Shown here: piece after piece, positions 25,109 to 32,769 of the stretch
Numbering within the stretch: position 1 is the first letter of the stretch
Layout: the number at the start of each line of letters is the position of its first letter
From: an alpha proteobacterium IMCC14465
Lineage (GTDB): Bacteria; Pseudomonadota; Alphaproteobacteria; RS24
Direction: 5' to 3'
Assembly: GCA_000293845.2 (NCBI GenBank)
Contig: ALYF01000002.1
Span: forward strand, 62,001-126,000
DNA: 64,000 nt
Program-made: the position numbers and the translations under genes
Notes under the pieces: generated by a model
The model's database searches: none
The model's input: the letters and a program-made list of their open reading frames with translations, nothing else
What the model was told of the DNA's origin: nothing

Positions 25109-25160
25109 CATCCAATCTATTTGCATAATCGTATGTTCATATACATATGGAGAGTTTCGC

Positions 25161-26585
25161 ATGTCCAAATCTGTCATTTATTGGTTTCGCCAAGACCTTC
25201 GCCTAGCTGATAATCCTGCCCTTCTTCACGCCGCACATTCTGGCAAGACTGTTATTCCCATTTTCATTTTTGACCCAGATGATAGATCTTTGGGTATGGC
25301 AGCCTCATGGTGGCGCCAGCAAAGTCTCGCCAAACTGGAGGCCGCGCTCAAAAAAATCGGGGGGAAGCTCTCTTTTTATGAAGGACGCCCTGTTGAGGTT
25401 TTGCAAAAGCTGAGTGATTTTTATGAGGCTGATGAAATTGTTTGGAATCGTCAATATGACGGCTATAGCGTGTCGCGCGATAAGGAAATCAAACAAACGC
25501 TCCCCAATAGCGGCACGGGAAATATCGAGTGTAAAAGCTTCAATGCTTCCTTGCTGTTTGAGCCATGGTTGATACAAAACAAATCAGGATCATATTTTAA
25601 GGTTTTCACCCCTTACTGGCGGCAATGTATGGCTGGAAACGCCCCTGAAGCCCCCTGCCCTCCACCAACAGAATTACGCAGTCATCCAGATGTCGACCCT
25701 TTTCAAATTCCCTTACCGGCATCCCCTCTAACTGCAGATGCGGATTTAATTGCTGAGGAATGGACACCCGGTGAAGCGGGTGCCTATCAGCAATTTGAAA
25801 ATTTTATCGAAGAAGGGTTAGAGATTTATGCCGAGTTTCGTGATTTTCCTGACCGTCCTGCAACATCGCGGCTGTCCCCCTATCTCCGTTGGGGTGAAAT
25901 AAGCCCCCGTCAGATTTGGTCAAAAATACAATTTGTGAAGTCACATGAAAAATTTTCAGAGCAAACAATTAGCAAATTCCTGGCCGAAATCGGATGGCGC
26001 GAATTTTCTCATCATCTGATCTATCATGTACCGGAGATGGCGACACAAAATCTGCAGCCTTCTTTCAATGATTTCCCATGGTTAGAAAACGAAGAAGCTT
26101 TGCTACAATGGCAGGCCGGCAATACTGGCTATCCGCTCGTTGATGCGGGGATGCGTGAATTACGCCGCACCGGATATATGCATAATCGTGTCCGCATGAT
26201 TACAGCCAGTTTTTTGATAAAGCATTTGATGATTGATTGGCGCGCAGGAGAAAAATATTTCTGGGATCGCTTGCTCGACGCCTGCCCGGCCAATAATATT
26301 ACCGGGTGGCAATGGGTTGCAGGGAGCGGCGCAGATGCCGCGCCATTTTTCAGAATTTTTAATCCCATTATTCAAGGGGAAAAATTTGACCCGCAAGGCG
26401 CCTACACGAAGCGATTTATTCCCGAGCTTAGCCATCTGGAGCAGAAACATTTATTTTCCCCATGGAAAGTAAAATCAGATAATATGGATTTGGACTTTCA
26501 GGAAGGGCAATATCCCGACCCGATTGTCGAACACGGATATGCTCGCAATCGCGCTTTAGATGCCTTTCAGCAAATTCGGCGTTAA
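25161..26585 (+). CDS. phr: Deoxyribodipyrimidine photo-lyase (class I photolyase/cryptochrome family)
   Basis: A 474-aa flavoprotein that uses blue light to split UV-induced pyrimidine dimers. The N-terminal antenna domain begins VIYWFRQDLRLADNPAL. The C-terminal FAD domain has the class I patterns WREFSHHLIYHVPEMA, RELRRTGYMHNRVRM and NNITGWQWVAGSGADAAPFFRIFNP. Normal length. It is the first gene of a plus-strand run with the COG2907 flavoprotein, DUF1365, Cfa and DUF3833 genes. In Rhodobacter a photolyase is part of the RpoE-ChrR singlet-oxygen response, so the linkage is meaningful. Confidence 0.94.
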   Translation: MSKSVIYWFRQDLRLADNPALLHAAHSGKTVIPIFIFDPDDRSLGMAASWWRQQSLAKLEAALKKIGGKLSFYEGRPVEVLQKLSDFYEADEIVWNRQYDGYSVSRDKEIKQTLPNSGTGNIECKSFNASLLFEPWLIQNKSGSYFKVFTPYWRQCMAGNAPEAPCPPPTELRSHPDVDPFQIPLPASPLTADADLIAEEWTPGEAGAYQQFENFIEEGLEIYAEFRDFPDRPATSRLSPYLRWGEISPRQIWSKIQFVKSHEKFSEQTISKFLAEIGWREFSHHLIYHVPEMATQNLQPSFNDFPWLENEEALLQWQAGNTGYPLVDAGMRELRRTGYMHNRVRMITASFLIKHLMIDWRAGEKYFWDRLLDACPANNITGWQWVAGSGADAAPFFRIFNPIIQGEKFDPQGAYTKRFIPELSHLEQKHLFSPWKVKSDNMDLDFQEGQYPDPIVEHGYARNRALDAFQQIRR

Positions 26586-26656
26586 GTTTAGTTGCGTATC
26601 TGTGAATATCTTGCCGGTACACTTCTGCTCAATGAATTTGGTGAAAGAGGGAAGCG

Positions 26657-27946
26657 TTGAAAATAGCAATTATTGGTGCCGGCATATCTGGTAATTTTGC
26701 GGCATATAAACTTTCCAAAAATCATGACGTGACTGTTTACGAAAAGCGTAACCGGCTTGGCGGACATAGTGCTACGATTGATGTTGATTATGACGGTGAG
26801 CAAATCGCTGTCGATACCGGTTTTATTGTCTATAACGAATTAAATTATCCCGGCCTGACGTCGCTTTTTGCCGAACTTGGTGTGGAAACCACGCCGAGCA
26901 ATATGAGTTTTGCTTTTAGCTCTGCCTTTGACAGAGATAAAGGCGGTCTCGAATGGTCTGGTGACTCGTTAAACACCATATTTGCACAACGAAAAAATCT
27001 ATTCTCTCCCTCTTTTTGGCTGATGCTGAAGGAGATTCTGAGATTTAATAAAATCGCCAATAGCGGAGATTTTAGCGGCGCGGCTGACGAAAGCCTCGGC
27101 GACTGGTTAAAGCGTCATAACTTCTCGGAGAATTTCAAAAACAGATACCTCATCCCCATGGGGGCGGCGATTTGGTCAACACCCAGTGAGGCGATGAATG
27201 ATTTTCCTGCAAAGAGTTTTCTGCATTTTTTCATTAACCATAAGCTGACCTACCAAGACCGTCCTGAATGGCGGACTGTAAAGGGCGGTAGCCGCGAATA
27301 TGTAAAAAAACTAACCGCGGCCAGCTCTGCCGATTTCAGGGTGAATGCGGAAGTCACCAAAGTGACGCGTCAAAACGCGCAGGTGCAGGTCTATACAAAT
27401 CAATCAGATAATTTTGAGATATATGATGCCGTAGTTTTTGCCGCACATACCAACCAGTCGCTCTGTGTATTAGAGGATACGGATAAAAATGAACGAGATG
27501 TGCTGTCAGATATTAAATACCTTCCCAATCAAGTGTATTTGCACCGCGATCGTCGCCTAATGCCTAAACGTGAAAAAGTGTGGTCTTCCTGGAACTATTT
27601 AAACAGTCAGGACGCAGGAAATAACATCATCGTAACAGTAAGTTACTGGATGAATCGTTTGCAAAATATTAACAAAAAACTCCCTCTTTTTGTGACGCTC
27701 AACCCATCCGAACCGCCGGCACCCGAACTTACATTCGGACATTATGAATATGACCACCCCCAATTTGATGGCGCGGCATTTCACGCACAGTCCAAACTTG
27801 CCAAAATTCAGGGCAACAAAAATACATGGTTTTGCGGCGCATGGGCTGGCTTCGGCTTTCATGAGGATGGCTTGCAATCCGCCCAAACAATCGTCAATGA
27901 TATTGAAAGCCGAAATTTCAAAGAAAATAAAACGAATGCCTCGTAA
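26657..27946 (+). CDS. FAD-dependent amine oxidase-like flavoprotein (COG2907)
   Basis: A 429-aa NAD(P)/FAD-binding flavoprotein. The N-terminal dinucleotide fold is IAIIGAGISGNFAAYKL (about residues 3-19), followed by YEKRNRLGGHSATID. The motif VDTGFIVYNELNYPGL is characteristic of the group. A C-terminal FAD-binding strand lies in FCGAWAGFGFHEDGLQSA. The start is TTG at 26657 with GAGGGAAG upstream. This family is regularly found next to DUF1365 and Cfa-type genes and is thought to act on lipid acyl chains; desaturation or oxidation of phospholipid-bound chains is an inference. It overlaps the next gene by 11 bases. Confidence 0.85.
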   Translation: MKIAIIGAGISGNFAAYKLSKNHDVTVYEKRNRLGGHSATIDVDYDGEQIAVDTGFIVYNELNYPGLTSLFAELGVETTPSNMSFAFSSAFDRDKGGLEWSGDSLNTIFAQRKNLFSPSFWLMLKEILRFNKIANSGDFSGAADESLGDWLKRHNFSENFKNRYLIPMGAAIWSTPSEAMNDFPAKSFLHFFINHKLTYQDRPEWRTVKGGSREYVKKLTAASSADFRVNAEVTKVTRQNAQVQVYTNQSDNFEIYDAVVFAAHTNQSLCVLEDTDKNERDVLSDIKYLPNQVYLHRDRRLMPKREKVWSSWNYLNSQDAGNNIIVTVSYWMNRLQNINKKLPLFVTLNPSEPPAPELTFGHYEYDHPQFDGAAFHAQSKLAKIQGNKNTWFCGAWAGFGFHEDGLQSAQTIVNDIESRNFKENKTNAS

Positions 27947-28715
27947 TGATGTGACAGAAAATGCTTATTCCGCCATTTATCATGGCATTGTGCGTCATGC
28001 CCGTTACATGCCCAAAAAACACCGTTTTGCCTATAAGGTTTTTTCTTTGTTGCTTGATATTGATGAGCTTGACGCCCTATCAGAGAAATTAAGATTATTT
28101 TCCCATAACCGATTTAATATTTTTGGGTTTCGGACATCTGACCATGGCGCAAAAGATGGCTCACCTTTACGCCCTTTTATCGAAAACCTGCTGACTGAGA
28201 AGAAAATCAAAGCCCCGGAGCGCATATTAATTATGTGCTATCCGCGAATCTTTGGTTATGTGTTTAACCCAATCACTGTTTATTACTGCCTCACAAATAA
28301 CAAAATTTCAGCCATGATTTATGAAGTTAATAATACTTTTGGCGAAGACCATATTTATGTTGTCCCGATAAACAAATCTGACCGCCCTGCCAAACATGAC
28401 CGAATTAAACAACTCCATGTCTCGCCATTTATTTCAATGGATGCGGAATATTCATTCACGACAGATATCCCTGATGAGGAACTCAAAGTGATTATCAGAG
28501 AAAAAAGTAATGGCGCGCCCTTATTATTGGCGAGCTTTATTGGCCAACGCGCACCATTGACCGATAAAGAATTATTCAAAGCATTTTTCGGCTACCCGTT
28601 AATGACAATTAAAATCGTCATTGGTATACATTACGAGGCTTTGAGACTAATTTTAAAAGGTGTACGCTATATAAATCGGCCATCAAAGCTGTCCTCCAGA
28701 ATAACCTATCTATAG
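27936..28715 (+). CDS. DUF1365 family protein
   Basis: A 259-aa protein of the DUF1365 (COG3496) family. It starts MPRNDVTENAYSAIYHGIVRHARYMPKKHRFAYKVF-like, with the signature YHGIVRHAR near the N-terminus. Later patterns are CYPRIFGYVFNPITVYYCL and YEVNNTFGEDHIY. The function is unknown; it is almost always beside the COG2907 flavoprotein and a Cfa-type methyltransferase, so a role in fatty-acyl modification is inferred. I chose ATG 27936 inside the end of the flavoprotein gene; a longer ORF from 27744 overlaps it too far. Basic and hydrophobic C-terminus, possibly membrane-associated. Confidence 0.87.
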   Translation: MPRNDVTENAYSAIYHGIVRHARYMPKKHRFAYKVFSLLLDIDELDALSEKLRLFSHNRFNIFGFRTSDHGAKDGSPLRPFIENLLTEKKIKAPERILIMCYPRIFGYVFNPITVYYCLTNNKISAMIYEVNNTFGEDHIYVVPINKSDRPAKHDRIKQLHVSPFISMDAEYSFTTDIPDEELKVIIREKSNGAPLLLASFIGQRAPLTDKELFKAFFGYPLMTIKIVIGIHYEALRLILKGVRYINRPSKLSSRITYL

Positions 28716-28734
28716 TCCCAATTAGTAATATAAT

Positions 28735-29964
28735 ATGAGCTCCTCCCAAGAATCATCACCAAACAAACCACCGCCCAGAGGAACCAAGGCCCTCATAAGC
28801 ATTGTTGAGTTTCTTTTCAAAAATTTGAGTTATGGCGTCGTTAATGTGCAATGGCCAGATGGCAGAACCGAGACATATCAAGGGAAAGAAAGCCTCCACC
28901 TTAAAGGGGATATACTCATTCATGATTGGTCGCTTTTTAAACAAATTGTAAGCGGCGGCGCCAATGGTTTCGCTGACGGATACCTCGCCAATAGATGGTC
29001 AACACCTGATCTCTCCGCCTTGCTTGAAGTTCTAAGCCTTAATCTTGATGAAATGAATAATCATATCGGGAAAAATAAATTTATTAAGCTCATCTCAAGG
29101 CTATCGCATCTATTACGTCCAAATTCACGCGCTGGCTCAAAGAAGAATATCTATGAGCATTATGATTTGGGGAATAGCTTTTACGAAAAATGGCTTGACC
29201 CAAGCATGACGTACTCATCTGCCAAGTTTAAAACAAAGAAAAACTCACTCGAAGCCGCACAATTTGAAAAATATAAGTTACTGGCAGATTCCATTGATTT
29301 GAAGAAAGAGCATCATGTTCTGGAGATTGGCTGTGGTTGGGGCGGTTTTGCGGAATATGCAGCAACCCATATCGGGTGTCGTGTTACCGGACTGACTATC
29401 AGTCAAGCGCAATATGATTATGCCCAAGAACGTATGCGCCAAAAAGGTTTGACGGATAAAGTCGAGATAAAATTGCAGGATTACCGAGATGTTATAGGCA
29501 ATTTTGATAGAATTGCCTCCATCGAGATGTTTGAAGCTGTCGGAGAACAATATTGGCCAACTTTTTTCAATAAGGTTTCCAGTATTCTCAAACCAGGCGG
29601 CAAAGCCGGCCTACAGATTATCACAATAGATAATGATAAATTTAAGACCTATCGTAAAAATGTTGATTTCATTCAAAAATATATCTTTCCAGGCGGCATG
29701 CTGCCTTCAAAAGAGATTTTGAAGAGTGAATTTGACAAGGCACAGCTTAAATTACTCGAAACGGTTGATTTTCGACTGGACTACGCAGAGACACTTGCAA
29801 GGTGGCGAGAGCGCTTCCACGACCAGTGGCATGATATACAGCCTCTAGGCTTTGACATGCGTTTTAAGCGCATGTGGGAGTATTATTTAAGCTATTGTGA
29901 AGCCGGCTTTAAAAGAGGCACAATAGACGTTTCACAATTCTTTATTACTAAAAACCCAAGCTAA
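28735..29964 (+). CDS. Cyclopropane-fatty-acyl-phospholipid synthase family methyltransferase
   Basis: A 409-aa SAM-dependent methyltransferase. The family motif HYDLGNSFYEKWLDPSMTYS (142-161) precedes the SAM site VLEIGCGWGGFAEYA (195-209). Compared with E. coli Cfa, whose bicarbonate ion is held by Cys139, Glu239, His266 and Tyr317 (from memory), the aligned residues are Ser162, Glu267, Gln294 and Arg358. Three of four are changed, so it may methylate unsaturated phospholipid chains without forming a cyclopropane, as proposed for UfaM-like enzymes of furan fatty acid synthesis. Fourth gene of the photolyase operon. Confidence 0.88.
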   Translation: MSSSQESSPNKPPPRGTKALISIVEFLFKNLSYGVVNVQWPDGRTETYQGKESLHLKGDILIHDWSLFKQIVSGGANGFADGYLANRWSTPDLSALLEVLSLNLDEMNNHIGKNKFIKLISRLSHLLRPNSRAGSKKNIYEHYDLGNSFYEKWLDPSMTYSSAKFKTKKNSLEAAQFEKYKLLADSIDLKKEHHVLEIGCGWGGFAEYAATHIGCRVTGLTISQAQYDYAQERMRQKGLTDKVEIKLQDYRDVIGNFDRIASIEMFEAVGEQYWPTFFNKVSSILKPGGKAGLQIITIDNDKFKTYRKNVDFIQKYIFPGGMLPSKEILKSEFDKAQLKLLETVDFRLDYAETLARWRERFHDQWHDIQPLGFDMRFKRMWEYYLSYCEAGFKRGTIDVSQFFITKNPS

Positions 29965-30034
29965 TCCAGTTACGTTTGCATAACGTATAAAAGTTAATTG
30001 CCGGCATTGACTACTGCGGCGCCAGGAGGTCTAT

Positions 30035-30496
30035 ATGTCTACCGCAGAGTCTTTAAATACCAGTTTTCGCCTAGAAAACTTCTTTATCGGGGAGTTCATC
30101 TCTGACGGCATTATTGCCAAACCTAATGGACAACTCATCCGACGCTTTAAGGTCGAAGGACAAGCCAGCTTCAAAAAAGGCACGCTCACTTTAAACGAAA
30201 GTTTTACCTATGATGATGGTGAAATCGATAATCGGATTTGGCAAATTTTATGCCTACCGGATGGGTCTTATGAAGGCTACACAACTGATTTAGTTGGTCC
30301 ACCTCCACGTGATTACCCAAGAGATGATCTTTTTACTTGGTCTTATCGTCTGAAATTACCCGTCAAAAACATTCCGGTGACCTTGCGATTTACCGATATG
30401 ATGCATTTCAAAAATGATAGTATCAGCAATATGGCAACCATCAGCAAATTCGGATTGCCTGTTTTGAAGATTTTTCAAACCTTCCATAAAGTCTAA
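30035..30496 (+). CDS. DUF3833 family protein
   Basis: A 153-aa protein matching DUF3833: FRLENFFIGEFISDGI at the start, TLTLNESFTYDDGEIDNRIW near residues 49-68, then WSYRLKLPV and a C-terminal SKFGLPVLKIF. Many relatives carry a lipoprotein signal; this one shows none. The family is found in ChrR/Cfa gene clusters of several Proteobacteria; its reaction is unknown. A strong AGGAGG lies 7 bases before the ATG. It ends directly against the convergent SDR gene, with no gap. Confidence 0.85.
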   Translation: MSTAESLNTSFRLENFFIGEFISDGIIAKPNGQLIRRFKVEGQASFKKGTLTLNESFTYDDGEIDNRIWQILCLPDGSYEGYTTDLVGPPPRDYPRDDLFTWSYRLKLPVKNIPVTLRFTDMMHFKNDSISNMATISKFGLPVLKIFQTFHKV

Positions 30497-31261
30497 TTAA
30501 CGCGAGAGTAACCGCACATAGAGTTGACGCGGTAAAAACGTCATTAATCTGAGCCAAAATGTAAAACGTTTTGGAAAAGTTATGCGTGTTCGGTTCTTTT
30601 CCAACCCGTCAACCATAGCCCGTGCCGCTTTCGTAACATCCATGAGAGCCGGCATGTGGAATGTGTTTTTCTGGGTTGCGGGCGTGTCAATAAAGCCCGG
30701 CGCGACCATATTTACGCTTAAACCATATTGCGCAAGATCAACCGCTAGGGCTTCCCCCATATTGAGTAAACCCGCTTTGGTGGCCCCATAAGCGGCAGAT
30801 GTCGGCAGGCCATTATAGCCTGCCACTGACGATACGAGCACAATCTGGCCTTGCTTGCGCTCAATCATAAAGGGATAAGCCGCCGCAATCATATTAACTG
30901 CGCCGGTTAAATTGACATCAAAACTTTTGTCAAAAATCGATACATCAAATTCTGGAAAATTAGTTGGAAGGTAAATCCCTGCATTGGCGATAATCATCGC
31001 AAGTGAACCCATTTCAGTCTCAATTTTTTGAGCAGTTTTTTGCATGCCCTTCCTGTCTGTAACATCACAGGCGTAAGAGACAATATTGTCATGCTGGGAA
31101 GCTAGCGCATCAAGCTTGTCACTGCTGCGGGCGGAAATAGACACCTGCCACCCGCGCCGGGCCATTTCGAGAGCAACAGCCGCGCCGATACCTGAACTCG
31201 CACCCGTAATCCATACAACACCGTCAGAGGGGCGCATGGCTGATAGTTTTCGTTTACTCAA
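30497..31261 (-). CDS. Short-chain dehydrogenase/reductase, ChrR-cluster type
   Basis: A 254-aa classical SDR. It has GASSGIG (about residues 20-26), NAGIY (about 91-95), SSVAGYNG, and an intact Y-x3-K in YGATKAGLL (about 158). The C-terminus after residue 225 is basic and hydrophobic (FWLRLMTFLPRQLYVRLL), suggesting membrane attachment. NAD(P)-dependent reduction or oxidation of a lipid-derived carbonyl or alcohol is inferred from the cluster. It overlaps the DUF6134 gene by 8 bases. A start at residue 9 (31237) is possible. Confidence 0.87.
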   Translation of the reverse strand: MSKRKLSAMRPSDGVVWITGASSGIGAAVALEMARRGWQVSISARSSDKLDALASQHDNIVSYACDVTDRKGMQKTAQKIETEMGSLAMIIANAGIYLPTNFPEFDVSIFDKSFDVNLTGAVNMIAAAYPFMIERKQGQIVLVSSVAGYNGLPTSAAYGATKAGLLNMGEALAVDLAQYGLSVNMVAPGFIDTPATQKNTFHMPALMDVTKAARAMVDGLEKNRTRITFPKRFTFWLRLMTFLPRQLYVRLLSR

Positions 31262-32015
31262 AAGGGTTATCCTTCAACAGAATTTCAGAAGCGTAATGCC
31301 ATTTCTTTTTTGGCGGAATTTTATCCGGACTGCATATCTCATAAATAGCATCCCGTTTCTTGCGGAAAGCACCGCCGACCCACTCACCCTGAGGGGTATA
31401 ATAGGCATCTCCCTTGGCAAAGCTGTAGGTCAGAACATCCTTTACCTCACCCAGCACATTAAGCTGTTGGCGGCCCAAAAAAGTGGTTTCCACGTCAATT
31501 TTTTTACCGCTTTGATGGTTAACCAACTGTTTTTCCGTGAGTGACTCAGGATTCCAGAAAGTTGCGGGCATGAGCGCCTTATCCATGGTGCCGCTAAATT
31601 TACTTCCCTCAACAACCAGCCCCTCTTCACCCAATACGCCTCTGGCAAAAAGCCTTTTATCCTGCTCTTTCGTATCTGTAATAAAGGCAACCAAAATCCC
31701 ATTTTTCCAATATTCAACCGCGTCATGGCGGAAATCTGCGACTTTAATGAAACCAAGCTTCACGATAATTTCAAAATGGGTTTTAACAACTAGATTATCT
31801 CCATCTGGAAAAAATTCCATATGATGAAACCCAACATCCTTGCCCTTATATTTAACGCGGAATGATTTTGTCCCCTCCGAGGGAACAGCAGCACGCCAGT
31901 CAAGCGCTGGATACTCAAAAGCAGCGTTTTTAACGCCTTGAGCAAATGCAAAAGAACATAAAAAAAGAAAAATTATTAAAGCGAGAAAGCTAGGATATAA
32001 AATCCTTGAGGACAC
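31254..32015 (-). CDS. DUF6134 family exported protein
   Basis: About 253 aa with a signal peptide (hydrophobic segment ending FAFAQ). It resembles DUF6134: FRVKYKGKDVGFHHMEF followed by VVKTHFEIIVKLGFIKVADFRHDAVEYW, then an all-beta body. The function is unknown; a periplasmic lipid or small-molecule binding fold is a guess. I chose the GTG at 32015, because AGG lies seven bases upstream; a TTG two codons earlier has its AGG too close. The gene overlaps the end of the chrR-like gene, which indicates translational coupling. Confidence 0.75.
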   Translation of the reverse strand: MSSRILYPSFLALIIFLFLCSFAFAQGVKNAAFEYPALDWRAAVPSEGTKSFRVKYKGKDVGFHHMEFFPDGDNLVVKTHFEIIVKLGFIKVADFRHDAVEYWKNGILVAFITDTKEQDKRLFARGVLGEEGLVVEGSKFSGTMDKALMPATFWNPESLTEKQLVNHQSGKKIDVETTFLGRQQLNVLGEVKDVLTYSFAKGDAYYTPQGEWVGGAFRKKRDAIYEICSPDKIPPKKKWHYASEILLKDNPFE

Positions 32016-32649
32016 GGCCAAACCTGTCTTTGAATTTCAATGAACCGGTAGTAACGGCTAAACATAGGCAAACTTCATCACCCACAGCTTTAGGGCGATG
32101 CTCAACCTTACCGTCAGCAATAGCAAGATCACCACGACTATAAACCTCGCCACCATCGATAAAAGCCCCTCTCAGTACGAGTGTGGCTTCGATACCCTCA
32201 TGTGCGTGACGCGGGGCAGATTTACCGGGCTGAATTTTCAAAAGACGAATATCGCTTGTCGCGTCATCAGCTTTAATTTTTGATGATTTCACGCCAGGAT
32301 AGGAAAACGACCACTTTAAACCATCAATATCGGTGGATAAAGCACGGCGAAGTGGCAGTGGCAGATCAACATCTGAACATGACATAAGATTATCAACAGG
32401 CGCCGGCTCTTCAGCAATGAGTTCAACAGGTTCATCATCAAGCGCGTCCATAAGCGACTGCACACTATCTTCGGACATGCCAACAGGCTCAGCACTATCA
32501 ATGATGGAGGCATTTAAATCATCGGCAAAATAGAGTTTTTTGCGGGCTTCAGGCTCAAGCGTTAGATAGCTGGCGACAAGAATGCTCATCGGCGTATCAA
32601 GCGTGCCTGCTGAATATTGTAAAAGTAATGTGTCGATGTCTGCTGACAT
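31990..32649 (-). CDS. ChrR-like cupin protein with degenerate anti-sigma domain
   Basis: 219 aa from ATG 32649. The N-terminal part aligns with the anti-sigma domain of Rhodobacter ChrR (LLLQYSAGTL, then VASYLTLEPEAR). The zinc ligands His6, His31, Cys35 and Cys38 of ChrR (from memory) correspond here to Ala3, Tyr28, Glu32 and Ala35, so the site is gone. The C-terminal cupin keeps its ligands: His148, His150, Glu154 and His184, with the same relative spacing as ChrR 141/143/147/177. ChrR restrains the ECF sigma factor RpoE until singlet oxygen appears. No sigma gene is adjacent here. First gene of an operon with DUF6134 and the SDR. Confidence 0.85.
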   Translation of the reverse strand: MSADIDTLLLQYSAGTLDTPMSILVASYLTLEPEARKKLYFADDLNASIIDSAEPVGMSEDSVQSLMDALDDEPVELIAEEPAPVDNLMSCSDVDLPLPLRRALSTDIDGLKWSFSYPGVKSSKIKADDATSDIRLLKIQPGKSAPRHAHEGIEATLVLRGAFIDGGEVYSRGDLAIADGKVEHRPKAVGDEVCLCLAVTTGSLKFKDRFGRVLKDFIS

Positions 32650-32709: not shown

Positions 32710-32769
32710 TTTCAGTTTGTTAACTACATTACGATATATATTTCATTTTGGTTCACAGACAAACTGAAA
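32710..32769. promoter_or_regulatory. Inverted repeat in the divergent chrR-like/cysK region
   Basis: TTTCAGTTTGT (32710-32720) and its exact reverse complement ACAAACTGAAA (32759-32769) flank a 38-base AT-rich spacer that contains TTTCATTTTG. The pair lies in the 182-base region between two divergent genes. It may be a two-site operator or a looping site; the regulator is unknown. Confidence 0.5.

Follow-up and report, generated by a model that had tools for sequence, protein, structure and literature searches.

A ChrR-family protein without anti-sigma zinc ligands in the marine PS1 clade and its probable pairing with an unlinked ECF11 sigma factor

Whether singlet oxygen is sensed by the Zn(Cys)2(His)2 site in the anti-sigma domain (ASD) of ChrR or by its cupin domain is under debate. 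Chabert et al. (2019) argued that a key step in sensing may be the photooxidation of the zinc-binding cysteines in the ASD, with the cupin required in vivo (PMC6432622), while Donohue (2019) regarded the function of this zinc as unknown (PMC6852236). The stretch of DNA analysed here, 64 kb in length and referred to as the window, encodes a ChrR homolog that bears on this choice. According to the original prediction, which was made from the sequence, the protein had lost the zinc site of the ASD, had kept the metal site of the cupin and had no sigma factor gene beside it. This raises the question of what the protein acts on, and how. Three answers had been put forward: that it holds a sigma factor without zinc, that its partner is encoded elsewhere, or that it now works alone as a sensor or enzyme. 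The analysis supports the first two in combination and disfavours the third.

The window ChrR scores 162.6 bits against TIGR02451, the NCBIfam profile for ChrR-family anti-sigma factors (cut-off 124.5), and 133 bits against NF051881, the equivalog profile for the cadmium/peroxide/UV-responsive anti-sigma factor ChrR, which is below its cut-off of 300. Its ATG start codon is kept in close relatives. The top match among PDB entries is Rhodobacter sphaeroides ChrR (2z2s_B, E 3e-28), and chains of this protein are the only strong structural relatives. The AlphaFold2 model (pLDDT 88.9) has the fold of the ChrR family, a four-helix ASD (residues 5-14, 19-31, 33-52 and 62-72) followed by a cupin, and superposes over its full length on the sigma-bound ChrR 2z2s_B with an rmsd of 2.7 Å for 197 columns. 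The sequence alignment with 2z2s_B is free of gaps up to about residue 70, including the ASD, and places Ala3, Tyr28, Glu32 and Ala35 at the positions of the zinc ligands His6, His31, Cys35 and Cys38. Because residues 1-90 contain neither histidine nor cysteine, no other alignment register can restore the site, and the proposed loss of all four ligands is upheld. The protein is thus a member of the ChrR family but not a ZAS protein, since the defining motif H/C-x24/25-H-x3-C-x2-C was tested for and is absent. The cupin ligands, His141, His143, Glu147 and His177 in R. sphaeroides ChrR, are intact, as had been claimed; they correspond to His148, His150, Glu154 and His184 and do not vary among 82 aligned homologous sequences. 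Cys194 (residues 194-196 are at 32062-32070), equivalent to ChrR Cys187, is also invariant in these 82 homologs. Substitution of Cys187 in R. sphaeroides ChrR reportedly has no effect on the singlet-oxygen response.

Table 1. Features of the chrR region; positions are those of the window.
Feature	Position	Strand	Basis
phr operon promoter, candidate ECF11-type, ATCC-N16-CGTAT	25110..25134	+	motif scan
Photolyase/cryptochrome-like, phr	25161..26585	+	sequence and synteny; regulon member in PMC5507510
FAD amine-oxidase-like, UfaD (RSP_1091)-like	26657..27946	+	domain match; UfaD in PMC7380195
DUF1365 protein, presumably UfaO (RSP_1090)-like	27933..28715	+	position and DUF; UfaO in PMC7380195
Cyclopropane-fatty-acid-synthase-like (CFA) methyltransferase, UfaM (RSP_2144)-like	28735..29964	+	profiles; PMC7380195
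DUF3833 protein, end of the phr-ufa run	30035..30496	+	domain, synteny
Short-chain dehydrogenase (SDR), RSP_1087-like	30497..31261	-	profiles; regulon list in PMC5507510
DUF6134 protein, gene overlapping chrR at the chrR 3' end, probably cotranscribed	31254..32021	-	ORF, domain, synteny
ChrR-family anti-sigma factor (219 aa) that lacks the ASD zinc ligands and retains those of the cupin	31990..32649	-	profile, PDB match, alignment
Cupin domain, residues 97-207, with His148, His150, Glu154, His184	32029..32361	-	domain search, alignment, AlphaFold2
Anti-sigma domain, residues 1-75	32425..32649	-	AlphaFold2 model, fold match to 2z2s_B; no His/Cys
chrR promoter, candidate ECF11-type, AACC-N16-CGTAA (TGAACC in context)	32729..32753	-	motif scan; published motif

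The source genome (1.92 Mb, 99.75% complete) belongs to a GTDB family that is a marine PS1-clade group, its nearest named relatives being 'PS1 clade bacterium MED-G50' and 'Rhodobiaceae bacterium UBA6963'. The ASD ligands are missing in all 21 other genomes of this family with a readable ASD, so their loss is not an error of a single assembly; G393, with an ASD alignment that looks frame-damaged, was excluded from the ligand counts. At the ligand positions of ChrR the family proteins have Ala, Ser, Pro or Glu (position 6), Tyr or Phe (31), Ser or Glu (35, Ser in most) and, without exception, Ala (38). The cupin ligands are present in every family ChrR for which the gene is complete. Loss of the ASD ligands is thus fixed in the PS1-clade family, with the cupin ligands kept. 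Two family genomes yielded no chrR: in G002 the ufaD gene beside the expected place runs off the contig end, and G013 also lacks ufaD and cysK. Both cases are most likely assembly gaps rather than gene losses.

The identity of the genes around chrR (Table 1) as the ECF11 regulon was overlooked in the original prediction. The conserved core of the R. sphaeroides sigmaE-ChrR regulon comprises RSP_1087-1091 and RSP_2143-2144 (PMC5507510), to which phr, the UfaD-, UfaO- and UfaM-like genes and the SDR gene of the window correspond. Judged by sequence, the genes from 25161 to 32021 are the conserved ECF11 regulon, and this match to the core regulon marks the window as a putative singlet-oxygen defence cluster without a sigma factor of its own. 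The gene order ABC-GNAT-cysK / chrR-DUF6134-SDR / CFA-DUF1365-FAD oxidase-phr is uniform throughout the PS1-clade family. We take the DUF1365 protein to be the UfaO counterpart, and its start at 27933 was placed inside a longer open reading frame that begins at 27744. The furan-fatty-acid enzymes of the R. sphaeroides regulon are required for the turnover of ChrR under singlet oxygen (PMC6852236). The DUF6134 gene located between chrR and the SDR gene shows 23-30% identity across the genera of the family and a conserved position.

Among the sigma factor matches within the window there is no ECF sigma gene, which agrees with the earlier statement that rpoE is absent. A genome-wide search revealed one ECF11-like sigma gene in the source genome, located on another contig (C3:465768-466307; G000); the closest solved structure of its product is R. 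sphaeroides RpoE (E 3e-49). Orthologs occur in most PS1-clade family genomes, with 62-67% identity outside the genus, and the gene was never found beside chrR in the family genomes examined. Outside the family, the ECF11 sigma gene was 3-80 bp from chrR in a first sample, and an ECF11-like sigma gene was present at the chrR locus and on the same strand in 113 of 127 alphaproteobacterial loci (median gap 23 bp). A second ChrR was searched for in the source genome and not found; the same holds for a zinc-type (zf-HC2) anti-sigma factor, and no obvious anti-sigma gene adjoins the C3 sigma gene. In a tree of 135 sigma factors, the PS1-clade family sequences form one clade that nests among the paired ECF11 sigma factors, beside the f121, f123 and f42 pairs, and a ChrR tree computed without the ligand columns places the family ChrRs beside the same three. 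Support for these positions is moderate (SH-aLRT 75-94), and the agreement of the two trees is consistent with joint inheritance of two partners whose genes are unlinked. The nearest sigma-ChrR pairs, G147b and G252, have already lost ligands with the sigma gene still adjoining, so that ligand decay may have preceded unlinking. Position 38 of the sigma factor, presumably important for ChrR binding according to older literature, is Lys in all 22 family sequences. The family sigma factors are also extended at the N-terminus by roughly 40-50 residues, a low-complexity segment that is partly conserved within genera (L075:9800-9969) and absent from R. sphaeroides RpoE.

Upstream regions within the PS1-clade family yielded the promoter motif AWCC-N16-CGTA, which was then compared with the published ECF11 consensus TGATCC-N16-CGTA of P. 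syringae (PMC5507510) and agrees with it. The motif lies 5' of chrR in 14 of 18 family genomes and 5' of phr in 11 of 15, with 0.02-0.06 expected from shuffled sequences, and no occurrences were found 5' of these genes with spacings from 12 to 21 other than 16. It also precedes 77 of the 113 sigma genes from ordinary ECF11 pairs, where 0.45 would be expected, as compared to none of the sigma genes in 18 PS1-clade family genomes. The window contains exactly two copies, before phr and before chrR, as compared to 0.28 expected. Because the motif alone is not specific on a genome-wide scale (7 matches, against 11 for a reversed control), the promoter case rests on position and conservation, and further regulon genes are not listed. 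The presence of the motif before chrR and its absence before the sigma gene lead to the prediction that chrR is in the ECF11 regulon and the sigma gene outside it. A scan with the pattern TGATC...TAA, which we took to represent the R. sphaeroides promoter, gave nothing useful. An 11-bp inverted repeat (TTTCAGTTTGT / ACAAACTGAAA) that is not conserved in sister genomes flanks the chrR promoter (32710-32769).

If the ASD had lost its function together with its zinc ligands, relaxed constraint would be visible in its codons. In four groups within the PS1-clade family, pN/pS was 0.07-0.12 for ASD helices 1-3, 0.06-0.11 for the cupin and 0.31-0.64 for the linker. Helices 1-3 are thus under purifying selection as strong as that on the cupin, and the domain is in use. 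Conservation is lower in helix 4, the contact helix for sigma region 2, which has an intermediate ratio of 0.16-0.34. The helix 1 consensus LLxxY-x-x-G-x-L and the helix 4 motif are kept in the family. Residues around the former zinc site are conserved as well: position 31 is Tyr or Phe throughout, position 38 is Ala, and Leu34, Leu27 and Met24 are fixed. This conservation suggests that hydrophobic packing substitutes for zinc, similar to the protein packing proposed to stand in for the metal in RseA (PMC6852236).

Loss of ASD ligands is not confined to the PS1-clade family. Among 126 usable alphaproteobacterial ChrRs from outside the family, 24 have lost at least one of His31, Cys35 and Cys38; the sigma gene adjoins 19 of these 24, and 15 of those 19 lack both cysteines. 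In f39 (four genomes), G133 and G340 none of the four ligands remains and the sigma gene is still adjacent. By parsimony the trees require 11-16 label changes, of which at least 3-6 are forced by strongly supported branches. In a smaller sample from outside the class Alphaproteobacteria the full motif was found in 28 of 28 ChrRs. The cupin HHEH ligands are present in all of about 190 complete ChrR proteins surveyed. The two metal sites thus differ greatly in evolutionary fate, the ASD ligands decaying repeatedly and the cupin never varying. Six loci (L209, L212 and L274-L277, from G096, G214, G643, G444, G487 and G498) encode ChrRs that have lost the ASD cysteines and have no ECF11 sigma gene nearby.

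On this evidence, the window ChrR is probably a zinc-independent anti-sigma factor that controls the ECF11 sigma factor in trans, from an unlinked locus, and senses through its cupin; we put the probability of this reading at about 0.74. It is supported by the existence of an unlinked ECF11 sigma gene, the ECF11-type promoters, the conserved ASD and the occurrence of ligand-less ChrRs beside sigma genes. In particular, 15 of the surveyed non-family ChrRs lack both cysteines and yet are encoded directly beside a sigma gene. The ASDs of RseA and RskA function without zinc, and the binding of sigma factor by RsiW is zinc-independent (PMC7406223; PMC6852236). Against this reading stands the finding that individual replacement of the ASD ligands of R. 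sphaeroides ChrR is enough to abolish inhibition (Newman 2001, cited in PMC6852236), so that a zinc-free ChrR-type ASD must carry compensating changes. By analogy with R. sphaeroides, sigma binding, signal and degradation would be as follows, with zinc-free packing and expression of the system inferred. In the unstressed cell, a metal-free four-helix ASD would hold the sigma factor, hydrophobic contacts of Tyr/Phe 31, Ala 38 and the surrounding Leu and Met residues replacing the zinc. Singlet oxygen or organic peroxide would then act on the metal site of the cupin, upon which ChrR would release the sigma factor or be degraded. Free sigma factor would transcribe the phr-ufaD-ufaO-ufaM and chrR-DUF6134-SDR operons from their ECF11 promoters, and freshly made ChrR would end the response. 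Autoregulation of the sigma gene would be lost, leaving the inhibitor alone inside the feedback loop.

The conserved ASD also weighs against the view that the window ChrR is a stand-alone cupin sensor or enzyme within the singlet-oxygen regulon, with the ECF11 sigma factor controlled in another way. The loss of the ASD ligands, the unlinked sigma gene and the retention of all cupin ligands would suit such a protein, and the six loci without an adjacent sigma gene listed above show that ligand-losing ChrRs do occur apart from a sigma gene. However, an idle domain would be expected to drift or vanish, whereas helices 1-3 are as constrained as the cupin and the helix 1 consensus and helix 4 motif are retained. 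Moreover, sigma factor and ChrR are kept together in the family with congruent tree placements, no alternative inhibitor was recognised by the searches for zf-HC2 proteins in the genome and for an obvious anti-sigma gene next to the C3 sigma gene, and the ECF11-type promoters point in the same direction. We therefore regard a stand-alone role as unlikely.

Inhibition of the unlinked sigma factor might also proceed with zinc or another metal still bound to the ASD, through non-homologous ligands such as Asp or Glu or residues contributed by the sigma factor. Glu32 and Glu34 are near the old site, but the N-terminal 90 residues offer no histidine or cysteine and the family has no conserved replacement ligand set, none being visible with position 35 mostly Ser and 38 always Ala; this makes a substitute metal site highly improbable. 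The genome encodes three other non-housekeeping ECF-like sigma factors, to one of which ChrR could have switched, leaving the ECF11 sigma factor free. The ECF11-type promoter on chrR and its neighbours and the agreement of the ECF11 sigma tree with the ChrR tree speak against such an exchange, to which we give hardly any weight.

The window ChrR resembles the R. sphaeroides sigmaE-ChrR system (ECF11; PDB 2Q1Z, 2Z2S) in domain order, fold, cupin metal ligands, core regulon genes (phr, ufaM/D/O, SDR) and promoter type, and presumably in a cupin-dependent response. Unlike R. sphaeroides ChrR it lacks the ASD zinc ligands, its sigma gene is unlinked and without an ECF11 promoter, and chrR heads an operon within the regulon. 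With E. coli RseA and M. tuberculosis RskA it would share a zinc-free class I ASD bundle in which protein contacts presumably take the place of the metal (PMC6852236, PMC7406223); both of these are membrane proteins that belong to other ECF groups and have no cupin, whereas the window ChrR is soluble and descended from zinc-bearing relatives. Class I ASDs without zinc are known in other groups, and groups with mixed zinc and non-zinc ASDs have been reported (PMC7406223). In the open literature, which does not cover most subscription papers, no report of a zinc-free ChrR or an unlinked ECF11-ChrR pair was found.

The PS1-clade family is a natural experiment on which of the two halves of ChrR does the sensing, since the zinc site thought necessary for the grip on the sigma factor is lost and the oxidant-sensing half is kept. 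A natural ChrR without the ASD site, with a conserved ECF11 regulon and an unvarying cupin, separates the two candidate sensing sites; a persisting response to singlet oxygen would mean that sensing does not require the ASD zinc. We consider the chances evenly balanced that the PS1-clade family and several other ligand-less alphaproteobacterial lineages run their singlet-oxygen response without ASD cysteines or zinc, with the cupin as sole sensor and the textbook ASD zinc a dispensable structural aid, and that the PS1 circuit is in addition rewired so that ECF11 control lies on the anti-sigma gene and not on the sigma gene. On the probable pairing with the C3 sigma factor, an inhibitor and its sigma gene can lie apart in the genome with a rewired feedback loop, and searches that pair them by adjacency only will miss such systems.

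The ligand-decayed ChrRs of other Alphaproteobacteria (f39, G133, G340, G252, G054 and others) are similar to those of the PS1 clade in having lost ASD ligands and kept the cupin HHEH, and differ in that the sigma gene is still adjacent and on the same strand. Three f22 proteins (L240, L245 and L247, from G620, G566 and G591) have a half-decayed site: His6 and His31 are kept, both ASD cysteines are replaced by Ser/Asn and Ala, the sigma gene is adjacent, and intact f22 members are available for comparison. Two genomes (L204 in G250 and L205 in G147) encode two ChrRs each, one of them paired with a sigma factor (H/C/A), the other with Y/N/Q at the ligand positions and no sigma factor beside its gene.
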